From assembly GCA_963170165.1 (NCBI GenBank), contig CAUJGQ010000138.1, positions 159,690 to 197,225 of the forward strand: a DNA stretch of 37,536 nucleotides, in the 5' to 3' direction. How positions within the stretch are numbered: the first letter of the stretch is position 1; the number at the start of each line of letters is the position of its first letter. Shown in pieces: positions 33,085 to 37,536 of the stretch. Origin of the DNA: Chloroflexota bacterium (GTDB taxonomy: Bacteria > Chloroflexota > Dehalococcoidia > CAUJGQ01). A program made the translations under genes and the position numbers. The notes under the pieces are model-generated. The model was not told the DNA's origin. It did no database searches and saw only the letters and a program-made list of their open reading frames with translations.

Positions 33085-33266
33085 GAGGGCAGTCGCTAGG
33101 ACGGCCCGCGTACCGTCCGGAAGGACGGGGAAGCGTGGGGGGCCCCGCCGGTGGGAGGGATGCCCAGCGACGCGCGTAACTCACCCGGCGTAGGAGTCAA
33201 GCTACCGGACCCCGCAGCAACGGCGCAGATCGATCAGCAGCACACCGGACAGCGCTCGGCGGCGGT

Positions 33267-33433
33267 GCGGGGTAGCCGGCGCCGGCCACAAGGCGGCAGG
33301 TTATTCGCGCGTCCGCGTGGCGTGGTCGATTCGTTCGTGCACGACCGTGGCCAGCACGACTGCCGCCGCGCCGCCGTCATCTTCCTCCGGCCGGAAGGCA
33401 GCGGTGGTGACGTCGGCGAAGAGCGCGCCGATG
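33267..33433 (-). repeat. Direct repeat, copy 1 (matches 35840-36006)
   Basis: A 167-base stretch that is nearly identical to 35840-36006 with no indels. It encodes the last 44 residues or so and the stop of the secreted protein at 35874, plus 34 bases after its stop. At 33433-33435 it joins RHS core sequence abruptly. This is a recombination junction. Confidence 0.8.
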
Positions 33434-33579
33434 ACGTGCGCCGCCAGCGGCGTCGAGGGACAGTCCCCCGCCGGGTCCGGGCTAAGGAACCGGCCGGTGG
33501 CCGGGTCGTACAGGCGCGCCCGCAGGTAGAGCAGCCCGCTCTCCGCGTCGCGGCGGTTGCCGGTGTCGTCAAACGGCAT
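33301..33579 (-). pseudogene. RHS core remnant fused in frame to the tail of a secreted protein
   Basis: A 92-codon frame from ATG 33579 begins in the RHS core (MPFDDTGNRRDAESGLLYL, RARLYDPATGRFLSPDP), then leaves it after PLAAH and continues in frame as the C-terminal tail of the 35874-36551 protein (ADVTTAAFRPEEDDGG, then HERIDHATRTRE). It lacks the RHS cleavage motif and any tip, so it cannot act as an RHS toxin. The same frame runs upstream through the IS630 remnant. It is a fossil chimera made by recombination. Confidence 0.75.
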
Positions 33580-33876: not shown

Positions 33877-34104
33877 TCAGTAACGTCTCAGCAGAAGTAG
33901 TACTACAGCATTGGCAATAGACCATATCACTACTGAGATTACGAAACGCAGTGCGACATCTGATGAGCCAACGGAAGATAGTATTACACTTGCGGGCATG
34001 ATGTCTGTTCCAGTTACGTGGAAGACAACTATCTCGATCAGCGAAATGAATAGTGAAAGACTTAGCGATATGATGATAGTCTGTTTGAAAGTTATCGGCT
34101 TCAT
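33877..34104 (-). CDS. Candidate membrane immunity protein, two TM helices
   Basis: 75 residues from ATG 34104. An in-frame GTG at 34134, two bases after the TAG of the RHS module (34136-34138), is an alternative start that adds 10 polar residues. Neither start has a clear ribosome site. Hydrophobic segments at about 8-32 (TIIISLSLSLFISLIEIVV) and 52-72 predict two transmembrane helices. It has no known family. The local composition is much richer in AT than the core genome. A small gene placed directly behind a polymorphic toxin tip usually encodes its immunity protein, and a membrane protein fits a membrane-active tip. Confidence 0.6.
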   Translation of the reverse strand: MKPITFKQTIIISLSLSLFISLIEIVVFHVTGTDIMPASVILSSVGSSDVALRFVISVVIWSIANAVVLLLLRRY

Positions 34105-34135
34105 CGCATCCGACTGCTTTTGTTCTAGCTCCACA

Positions 34136-35056
34136 CTAGTGGAAACCTGCTCCACCACCTCCGCCTCCGCTCGGTGGGCCAGGTGCATCGTTGCCAGATT
34201 CTAGTCTGCTGCATACTGCATCACATCCATTTCGGCCTCCGTAAGCAGATAATGCGCCGCAGATAACGTCAACCGTTCCTGCACAAGCCAGTCCAGGGAT
34301 TGTCCATGCTAGACTGAGTATCGGGCCGATGCAAACAGCCCAACCTATATCGACACATGTGTGCGATGCGCCCAACCCGTACACAATCCCGCAGAGTTGT
34401 CTGCAACCGATCTTCGGGAACCAACTCCAGGGTGAGTTGTGCGTCCATACGAACTGGTCATAGTTCGGGATGTATTTCGCGCCAAGCCCGAGATCCATGA
34501 TGGGGTGGATGCACAGCCCCGGGTCATTCGCCGAGCAAATGCCGTCGTCCAGCGCTGGCTGCGTGTCGACATCTGGGACGGGCGGCTTGCCAATTCCTTG
34601 ATAGGGCTGCGCACCCGGATAGTCGCCGGGCATGGTGCTGGGCGCCGGCCCGTCCCACGCCGAGAGTCCGAGCGGGTCGGTGTAGCGTGCCGGGTTGGCG
34701 AGGCCGTAGAGGTACGCGTGCGCCGTCAGCGGGGTTGACGGGCAGTCCCTCGCCGGGTCCGGGCTGAGAAACCGGCCGGTGGCCGGGTCGTACAGCCGTG
34801 CCCGCAGGTAGAGCAGCCCGCTCTCCGCGTCGCGGCGGTTGCCGGTGTAGTCAAACGGCATGCTCGTGCCGGTCTGTGTGTGGATGTTGCCATACGCGTC
34901 GTACTCCCGGCTGCCGATGGCGCTGCCTGTGCTGCTCAGCACCAGCCGTTCGCTCCCCTGGCGGTCGGCCGCCACCACCCAGCGGGTACTGGGTGACCAG
35001 CTCCCCCGCCCACACGTACTCGCTGGCCCCGTCTCAATCACACTACTGCTCGCCAT
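34136..35056 (-). CDS. Orphan RHS module with cysteine-patterned toxin tip
   Basis: The frame from ATG 35056 gives 306 residues, but only those after about residue 24 (RWVVAADRQGSERLVL) are RHS. It has the RHS core (REYDAYGN, YDPATGRFLSPDP), the self-cleavage motif PARYTDPLGL and a pre-tip segment shared with the copy at the window edge. A hydrophobic tip (residues 217-282) has eight Cys spaced 3-11-7-15-7-11-3, with TIPGLACAGTVDVIC resembling halocin C8-like domains. A Gly tail ends it. The large N-terminal RHS shell is missing, and one extra base near 34984-34986 breaks the frame to the upstream EYVWAGELVTQY. It is a displaced module that would become active by recombination. Confidence 0.75.
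   Translation of the reverse strand: MASSSVIETGPASTCGRGSWSPSTRWVVAADRQGSERLVLSSTGSAIGSREYDAYGNIHTQTGTSMPFDYTGNRRDAESGLLYLRARLYDPATGRFLSPDPARDCPSTPLTAHAYLYGLANPARYTDPLGLSAWDGPAPSTMPGDYPGAQPYQGIGKPPVPDVDTQPALDDGICSANDPGLCIHPIMDLGLGAKYIPNYDQFVWTHNSPWSWFPKIGCRQLCGIVYGLGASHTCVDIGWAVCIGPILSLAWTIPGLACAGTVDVICGALSAYGGRNGCDAVCSRLESGNDAPGPPSGGGGGGAGFH
34416..34798 (-). repeat. RHS pre-tip/core homology, copy B (matches 37154-37536)
   Basis: About 383 bases collinear with 37154-37536 (offset 2738) without indels, covering RHS core, PARYTDPLGL and the pre-tip segment up to WSWFPK. Similarity stops abruptly at the first tip cysteine. The pattern is typical of polymorphic toxins that swap tips at a conserved border. 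Confidence 0.8.
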
Positions 35057-35357
35057 CTCGGGTCGACCTAATATGGGGGAGCAACCAGAACAGCGCTACC
35101 GCAATACCGGCCGCACCCATAACAATGGTGATAATCGCATCCCAGACTGTGAATCCAGATTCTCGCAGAGCGCGGCCAACTACGACGGTACCAGTGAACC
35201 CTAGGGCTATTCCTAGGAATGTCGTTAGCTGTCTCCTCTGGGAATGGCCAGCCCAGTGCTGTAGTCTGCCCTTTACGGGCCTTGTGTCCCGAAACAGCGT
35301 AATGAGGATGATCATCGCGACAGGAACCATGAATGCGAAGATGCCGGTGACCATCAT
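35043..35357 (-). CDS. Small membrane protein, candidate displaced immunity gene
   Basis: 104 residues from ATG 35357 (the next codon is also ATG), with GGGA about 9 bases upstream; a longer frame to 35399 is possible. Three hydrophobic segments (MVTGIFAFMVPVAMIILITL, LTTFLGIALGFTGTVVV, DAIITIVMGAAGIAVALFWL) predict three transmembrane helices. No family is recognised. Its stop overlaps the start of the RHS module that follows on the same strand, so RHS sequence begins exactly where this gene ends. That placement suggests an immunity gene left behind when its own tip was lost or replaced. Confidence 0.55.
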   Translation of the reverse strand: MMVTGIFAFMVPVAMIILITLFRDTRPVKGRLQHWAGHSQRRQLTTFLGIALGFTGTVVVGRALRESGFTVWDAIITIVMGAAGIAVALFWLLPHIRSTRDGEQ

Positions 35358-35399
35358 ATAGTTTCCCGTTTGGGCGAACGCCGCTTCCGTCCGAGACAC

Positions 35400-35839
35400 C
35401 CAGGTATACGAGCTATCGGCAGATTAGCGCCCCTTCGCAGACTTGCTTGGCGGATGGTGAGGGAAGAGCAGCCACTGACCTCAGCATAGATTACTGACCA
35501 TAGCCGCAGCGGCAGAAACCGGCCGTGGTGGAGATCTCTGCCTTGGCGGTCTTCGATGTGCATGCCGGCAGGCGCGTCCTCACCCGCGGTGCGGCCCTCG
35601 CCCGCCGGGCGCAGCTTGCCCCCGCGCCCTAAACCGGCATCCGAACAGGGGCCTGCACAGTCTGGCGAGGGGTACGGGCGCAGCTCGCGCGTATGGGATG
35701 CACCACCTGAGAGAGCACACCTGTCTCCGCTCGGGCGCGCCGTGCGCTGCGGGTGTGCGGGGGGCGAGCAACGGGCGCGCGCGCGGGCAGCCCCCCTGTG
35801 GTGCGGGTATGCCTCCGAGGGCACACACCCGGCGGTCGT
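35400..35839. other. Gene-free stretch between RHS-linked genes
   Basis: I see no convincing gene here. The stretch holds a short alternating CG run (about 35774-35787) and GC-rich simple sequence. A long open frame on the minus strand (35354-36115) is a shadow of the flanking genes and has no recognisable content. Confidence 0.5.
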
Positions 35840-36006
35840 GCGGGGTAACCGGCGCCGGCCGGAAGGCGGCTGGTTATTCGCGCGTCCGCGTGGCGTGGTC
35901 GATTCGTTCGTGCACGACCGTGGCCAGCGCCACTGCCGCCGCGCCGCCGTCATCTTCCTCCGGCCGGAAGGCAGCGGTGGTGACGTCGGCATAGAGCGCG
36001 CCGATG
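35840..36006 (-). repeat. Direct repeat, copy 2 (matches 33267-33433)
   Basis: This is the original context of the repeat: the end of the secreted-protein gene and 34 bases downstream. The copy at 33267 is fused to an RHS core. The two copies are 2,573 bases apart in the same orientation, so recombination between them could delete the RHS modules in between. Confidence 0.8.
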
Positions 36007-36669: not shown

Positions 36670-36873
36670 GTGTCGATAGCCTTTATTGTGCTGTCCATTA
36701 TTTGGGTTGCTTCCTTGTATTTTGGGTTGTACGGTGGCCTGAGTCTTGGGAACCTCTCCGACGATTGGCGCCGGTGGTGGGTGCAGCTCTTCCCGTTGCT
36801 TACGTTTATCGTGTTATTGCTAGCTGTATTCTTGTTCTCCGCGATTAGATCTGGATTTATGCCTTCATTCTGA
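36670..36873 (+). CDS. Possible two-helix membrane protein opposite to the RHS array
   Basis: Plus-strand frame with a GTG at 36670 and no ribosome site. The open frame continues upstream as SEAAAIFDVIHRFLFLF without ATG, GTG or TTG, so a one-base indel after an ATG at 36612 is possible. The protein has two hydrophobic helices (VLSIIWVASLYFGLYGG and LLTFIVLLLAVFLFSAI) around a polar WRRWW loop. The minus-strand frame through the same bases is Lys/Asn-rich and less protein-like. It lies in the AT-rich stretch right after an RHS tip, so it could be a broken immunity gene. Confidence 0.35.
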   Translation: MSIAFIVLSIIWVASLYFGLYGGLSLGNLSDDWRRWWVQLFPLLTFIVLLLAVFLFSAIRSGFMPSF

Positions 36874-36939: not shown

Positions 36940-37536
36940 CTAGTGCAATAGTCTTTGCATGGTATACGCATTGCATTGGCGCAGATGCGTCCCCCAGTAA
37001 AACCCGCAAGTTGCAGCGCATGCGGCAGCCGCAATTGGGTTTGCCGTTATAGTTCCACAGACAATGGCGCAGGAAGCGTTCAATGGTACACCTGCCACAA
37101 AACATAGGCCGCTGGAGCAGACAGCATTGCAGATAGTCTTACAGCCGGCTTTAGGAATCCAACTCCAGGGCGAATAGCGCGTCCATACGAACTGGTCGTA
37201 GTTGTGAATGTATTTCGCGCCGAGCCTAAGATCCATGATGGTTTGGAGGCACAGCCCCGGTTCATTCGCCGAGCAAATGCCGTCGTCAAGCGCTGGCTGC
37301 GTGTCGATGTCGGGGGCGGGTGGCTTGCCAACACCGAGGTAGGGCTGTGCGCCCGGGTAGTCGCCCGGCGTGGTGCTGGGCGCCGGCCCGTCCCACGCCG
37401 AGAGTCCGAGCGGGTCGGTGTAGCGCGCGGGGTTGGCTAGGCCGTACAGGTAGGCATGCGCGCTCAGCGGCGTCGAGGGACAGTCCCCCGCCGGGTCCGG
37501 GCTGAGAAACCGGCCCGTGGCCGGGTCGTACAGCCG
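36940..37536 (-). CDS. RHS protein C-terminus with cysteine-rich tip, 5' part outside the window
   Basis: 198 visible residues, open to the window edge. They begin in the RHS core (RLYDPATGRFLSPDP), pass the cleavage motif PARYTDPLGL and a pre-tip segment shared with the module at 34136 (PALDDGICSAN, GAKYIHNYDQFVWT), then enter a different tip. The tip has nine Cys spaced 3-3-4-10-3-12-3-10, with several CxxxC pairs such as CAIVC and CAATC, and hydrophobic Ala/Ile/Val stretches. CxxxC pairs place Cys on one helix face, suggesting disulfide-linked helices. The frame ends at TAG 36940. The downstream sequence is AT-rich. If the N-terminal shell is intact outside the window, this could be the functional RHS gene. 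Confidence 0.75.
   Translation of the reverse strand, partial: RLYDPATGRFLSPDPAGDCPSTPLSAHAYLYGLANPARYTDPLGLSAWDGPAPSTTPGDYPGAQPYLGVGKPPAPDIDTQPALDDGICSANEPGLCLQTIMDLRLGAKYIHNYDQFVWTRYSPWSWIPKAGCKTICNAVCSSGLCFVAGVPLNASCAIVCGTITANPIAAAACAATCGFYWGTHLRQCNAYTMQRLLH
37154..37536 (-). repeat. RHS pre-tip/core homology, copy A
   Basis: Collinear with 34416-34798. The two copies differ by scattered substitutions, so they are not a very recent duplication. Confidence 0.8.

Follow-up and report, generated by a model that had tools for sequence, protein, structure and literature searches.

A probable membrane immunity gene behind a cysteine-rich RHS tip in a Chloroflexota bacterium

A small gene directly behind the C-terminal tip of an RHS module in a Chloroflexota bacterium (class Dehalococcoidia) is probably the cognate immunity gene of that tip, which would be a cysteine-rich, membrane-active domain in a displaced (orphan) cassette. 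The pair lies in a stretch of 37,536 nucleotides of contig CAUJGQ010000138.1, called the window here. The reading rests on the position and length of the small gene, the hydrophobic segments, a drop in GC content, the tip boundary seen between two modules and a statistical link between such tips and small membrane genes across the phylum. As a kind, membrane-active RHS tips paired with immunity genes of their own are already known.

RHS modules and their neighbourhood

The features of the window that bear on the small gene and the tip are the following.
33435..33579, minus strand: fragment of an RHS core (92% identity to 34717-34861), fused to a duplicate of part of the 36572-35874 gene
33877..34134, minus strand: small two-helix membrane protein gene, candidate immunity gene, with GTG at 34134 and an alternative ATG at 34104
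34139..34420, minus strand: variable tip of the orphan module, with eight cysteines, one hydropathy segment, a Gly-rich tail and a subthreshold halocin C8-like match
34136..35056, minus strand: orphan RHS module, consisting of the end of an RHS core, a linker and a C-terminal tip, with no N-terminal RHS part
35043..35399, minus strand: ORF for a 118-aa membrane protein, its end overlapping the first codons of the orphan module
36670..36873, plus strand: 67-aa ORF that faces the second module's tip tail to tail and has two hydrophobic segments; a weak candidate for an inverted immunity gene
36940..37536, minus strand: second RHS module, which shares core and linker with the orphan module, has a tip of its own (nine cysteines in the variable part) and is truncated where the contig stops

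The orphan module encodes 306 aa from an ATG at 35056. Its core and linker are near-identical to those of the second module and the two diverge from about PKxGC on. As in the classical polymorphic toxins, this marks the last ~90 residues as an exchangeable tip. A conserved RHS core (TIGR03696, 74.3 bits) followed by a module-specific tip, seen in both modules, is the layout of an RHS polymorphic toxin cassette. The module begins at 35056 and lacks the N-terminal delivery part of a full-length RHS protein, and is for this reason classed as a displaced cassette, not a complete RHS toxin system. No match to the YD-repeat (PF05593) was found in the assembly of this genome. In its present form the tip perhaps cannot be delivered. 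The contig ends at 37536 inside an RHS core, and the assembly may have lost a full-length RHS protein in the gap beyond.

The window shows a set of displaced cassettes. The 118-aa ORF upstream of the orphan module is a possible immunity gene of a lost tip. A piece of 177 bases is duplicated at 94% identity (33257-33433 and 35830-36006, the latter being the end of the 36572-35874 gene) and fused to the RHS remnant, forming a recombination scar. The 67-aa ORF is overlapped on the opposite strand by a 103-aa ORF with no hydrophobic segment. Scans with PADLOC and Rfam and for promoters and terminators gave nothing bearing on the small gene or the tip.

The small gene

The first-pass annotation had placed a GTG just past the stop codon of the RHS module and an ATG 30 bases further on, and both were confirmed on the minus strand. 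The TAG of the module occupies 34138-34136, a single base (34135) follows, and the small gene opens with GTG at 34134-34132, with the in-frame ATG at 34104-34102 and a TGA stop ending at 33877. The small gene is thus on the same strand as the tip and directly downstream of it, as in an RHS toxin cassette. Its product has 85 aa from the GTG and 75 aa from the ATG; a further ATG of the same frame at 34188, within the tip gene, would give 103 aa. The start codon is unsettled, since an SD-like GGAG stands 15 bases before the GTG, beyond the usual distance.

Two transmembrane helices and a low GC content had also been claimed for this gene. The 85-aa protein has hydropathy segments at residues 14-32 and 64-82, and its gene has 43% GC against 68% in the window (0.434 and 0.678), with 0.560 in the variable part of the tip and 0.671 in the RHS core just upstream; both parts of the claim stand. 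A single-sequence AlphaFold2 model of moderate confidence (mean pLDDT 69.0, pTM 0.45) consists mainly of two long helices. Each end region carries two K/R residues, and the positive-inside rule would allow both ends to be cytoplasmic. When the 306 bases behind the tip stop were block-shuffled 5000 times, a frame of at least 75 codons arose in 444 shuffles and one that also had two transmembrane segments in 2. The protein gave no match in NCBIfam and, in Pfam, only a subthreshold match to an unrelated DUF. Nothing beyond chance-level matches to the small gene was found in 400 genomes of the phylum, and there was no convincing match to it, or to the tip, in viral contigs. As a candidate assignment, the earlier proposal of an immunity gene is upheld, and the position, the size, the two-helix topology and the GC drop common to gene and tip all fit.

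The eight-cysteine tip

The cysteines of the tip are separated by intervals of 4, 12, 8, 16, 8, 12 and 4, a palindrome made of multiples of four that was noticed post hoc. Among 2,000,000 random placements of the cysteines in the same span, 125 were palindromic, 145 had all intervals in multiples of four and one had both properties. Such mirror-symmetric spacing would suit a helical hairpin with nested disulfides. AlphaFold2 modelled the tip with low confidence only (mean pLDDT 47.6).

Halocin C8-like domains (TIGR04449) are cysteine-rich hydrophobic miniproteins, and the immunity protein of halocin C8 is part of the same precursor as the halocin itself. The tip differs from such domains in scoring below the curated cut-off of 24 bits: it reached 18.7 bits over model positions 3-65 of 69, and the whole module protein reached 15.6 bits. 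None of ten cysteine-preserving shuffles of the tip matched the model. TIGR04449 had no match in the 400 phylum genomes and, in 50 genomes behind loci of the RHS-core scan described below, two weak matches, the best at 21.9 bits and neither over the cut-off. No halocin link is claimed, because the match of the tip is subthreshold. According to PMC8651086, PAAR proteins can carry a halocin C8-like domain as an extension at their C-terminus.

Other searches with the tip gave no family in Pfam at E <=5, one chance match among plasmids and no convincing match among genome contigs. In the 400 phylum genomes the tip found its own copies and matches at E 0.001-0.01, which is chance level, and the loci retrieved for the latter had no RHS core motif. 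Linker and tip together, searched in 100 relatives, matched in their own genome only. A likeness to conotoxins was rejected; the search of solved structures gave only two short conotoxin chains (E 0.16 and 0.44), which are taken as chance cysteine matches. Identity with Tox-W-TIP was considered for the WTIP letters in the tip; Pfam gave no match.

Short hydrophobic tips and downstream membrane genes in the phylum

The association was examined in three samples of RHS modules. The tested class comprised tips of <=130 aa after the core with a hydropathy segment, and a success was an ORF of 55-250 aa with at least two transmembrane segments that started -40 to +300 nt from the tip stop. The tip of the window lies outside this class, with 176 aa in linker and tip together and eight cysteines in the variable part instead of two. 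Sample A consisted of the 150 places among the best matches listed, or 149 without the window's own genome, of which 143 were testable and non-redundant. Sample B, from another class, had 77 new places in 66 regions; 40 regions holding 49 places were taken and 44 places tested. Sample C was made up of 20 regions picked by hand, with arrays favoured and the rule fixed beforehand; it held 55 places, of which 49 were tested, and one further place was taken out as seen earlier. Modules in samples A and B were located by the coordinates of their TIGR03696 matches, and an RHS-core regex was used for the counts at random positions and inside RHS genes.

In sample A, after viewing of which (together with an initial RHS-core scan) the tip class and the +300 nt limit were chosen, 14 of 20 short hydrophobic tips were followed by a membrane ORF against 24 of 123 other tips (p = 1.3e-5). 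Sample B gave 1/2 against 16/42, too few cases to inform. Sample C gave 16/19 against 8/30, or 15/18 against 8/30 without the tip seen earlier (p = 1.6e-4); the effect comes from genomes G328 and G334 (10/11 against 3/18), and outside them the difference was not significant (5/7 against 5/12). When tips were permuted within genomes, the 30 observed successes compared with a mean of 22.3, and 20,000 permutations never reached 30. With gaps of <=100 nt the pooled difference is smaller (14/40 against 41/195). An ORF of this kind was found at 131 of 1500 random positions and at 25 of 166 positions inside RHS genes. Thus, with about 235 Chloroflexota RHS modules tested, the expectation that a membrane-like tip is followed by a membrane immunity gene held in samples A and C.

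A downstream membrane gene is not specific to these tips, since membrane ORFs also follow 20-38% of other tips. The similarity of tips and that of their downstream proteins showed no significant link (Mantel rho 0.098, 123/2000), a result that gives no sign of pair specificity. Exactly two cysteines were counted in 33 of 40 short hydrophobic tips and, within the last 90 residues, in 42 of 187 other tips.

Comparison with known systems

The closest functional parallel of the small protein, likened by description and not by sequence, is the immunity protein (CdiI) of ionophore toxins of contact-dependent inhibition (CDI) systems. In the accessible part of PMC11630599, these proteins are described as two-helix hairpins of 72-100 residues with cytoplasmic termini. 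The small protein of the window falls within this size range at 85 aa and agrees in its two hydrophobic segments and in the two long helices of its model. The E. coli CDI ionophore toxins, in the same account, are hydrophobic helical domains at the C-terminus of a large polymorphic protein, as the tip is here; the carrier differs, being CdiA and not RHS, and the toxin has five helices and an entry domain.

Tse5 and Tsi5 are presented in the accessible part of PMC10684867 as a pore-forming Rhs toxin of a type VI system and its cognate immunity gene. The pair in the window has an RHS carrier too and would also be alike in a membrane-active C-terminal part and a cognate immunity gene. Unlike the tip of the window, the Tse5 tip has 149 residues, is not described as cysteine-rich in that part of the source, is delivered by a type VI secretion system and comes with a full-length shell. 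Tox-W-TIP, as given in the accessible part of Zhang (2012; PMC3482391), is a small hydrophobic pore-type tip of polymorphic toxins, predicted to have two helices and restricted to proteobacteria. It resembles the tip of the window in being small, hydrophobic and borne on a polymorphic toxin carrier.

Alternative explanations

The small gene could be a membrane ORF unlinked to the tip and brought to its place by recombination. The region is scrambled, with its 177-base duplication and fused RHS remnant; other small membrane ORFs lie nearby, and no homologue of the small gene came out of the phylum genomes or viral contigs. The one-base gap and the GC drop that the gene has in common with the tip argue against an accidental neighbour, as does the link between tips of this kind and small membrane genes across the phylum, and an unlinked origin is considered unlikely. 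That the small ORF is no gene at all, but an open frame that arose by chance over the end of the tip gene, would agree with the same lack of homologues, with the weak start signals and with the number of shuffles that yielded 75-codon frames; two transmembrane segments in only 2 of the 5000 and a position that fits a coupled gene make it hardly credible.

Two-peptide bacteriocins exist, and a hydrophobic hairpin may itself be toxic; the small gene might accordingly encode an accessory of the toxin, either a second membrane-active subunit or an export helper. In characterised RHS and CDI systems, however, immunity is encoded by the gene that follows the tip, and the known membrane-active CDI parallels have two-helix hairpins as immunity proteins (PMC11630599); an accessory role is improbable. 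The immunity gene of the tip might also be the upstream ORF (35399-35043), whose 118-aa membrane protein gene runs into the first codons of the module, with the downstream ORF belonging elsewhere. Immunity genes normally lie downstream of the tip, and a gene upstream of a displaced module would more simply be the immunity gene of the previous, lost tip, which makes this assignment very improbable. The reading of the small gene as the cognate immunity gene of the tip is preferred over these.

Proposed mechanism

If the small gene is the immunity gene, the tip would be a short hydrophobic domain stapled by disulfides. By analogy with the CDI ionophores and Tse5, it would insert into a competitor's cytoplasmic membrane and collapse the gradients there, the damage to the membrane being the presumed basis of toxicity. 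The immunity protein would form a hairpin of two helices whose ends probably both lie in the cytoplasm, and it may bind the tip within the membrane and block it, thereby protecting the producer, again on the model of those systems. Tip and immunity gene together would make up a single low-GC cassette, exchangeable as a unit and attached to an RHS core and linker common to the modules. A displaced cassette without the N-terminal RHS part may serve as reserve ammunition; alternatively, the orphan immunity gene may guard against siblings that carry the full toxin.

Wider significance

A plausible, still tentative reading is that Chloroflexota carry a large, undescribed arsenal of short RHS-borne membrane toxins with small immunity proteins of their own. 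On this joint reading, the toxins would be hydrophobic domains of ~40-130 aa, mostly with exactly two cysteines and some with 8-12, and the tip of the window would be a nested-disulfide hairpin among them; the immunity proteins would have 2-3 helices and mostly 60-120 aa, and the pairs would often stand in arrays of displaced cassettes. No account of short, mostly two-cysteine RHS tips of Chloroflexota was found in the open-licence literature searched, where the class appears to be undescribed. The pair would extend the range of membrane-active RHS toxins, for which type VI systems of proteobacteria are the main known source, to an environmental phylum. A rule for annotation is suggested as well, namely a short hydrophobic RHS tip followed by a small membrane gene, which would give names to many orphan small proteins. 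The pairs of tip and small gene are short enough for direct making and testing, and the mirror-symmetric cysteine spacing amounts to a clear structural prediction.

Comparable loci in other genomes

A scan of genome contigs with the RHS core gave 79 loci. Two of these, in a Dehalococcoidia MAG (L093) and a Chloroflexi MAG (L069), have short hydrophobic tips with two cysteines, and small ORFs with 2-3 transmembrane segments stand behind the tips at gaps of +53, -4 and +6 nt, the same layout as in the window. One of the 40 short hydrophobic tips of the phylum samples (L193, G123:C122) has 63 residues with twelve cysteines behind an RHS core whose frame extends well upstream, and this tip is followed at +149 by an ORF for a 119-aa protein with three transmembrane segments. 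In addition, genome G328 (L321-L327) has 35 RHS-core matches, several of them in tight arrays of displaced modules with differing tips.
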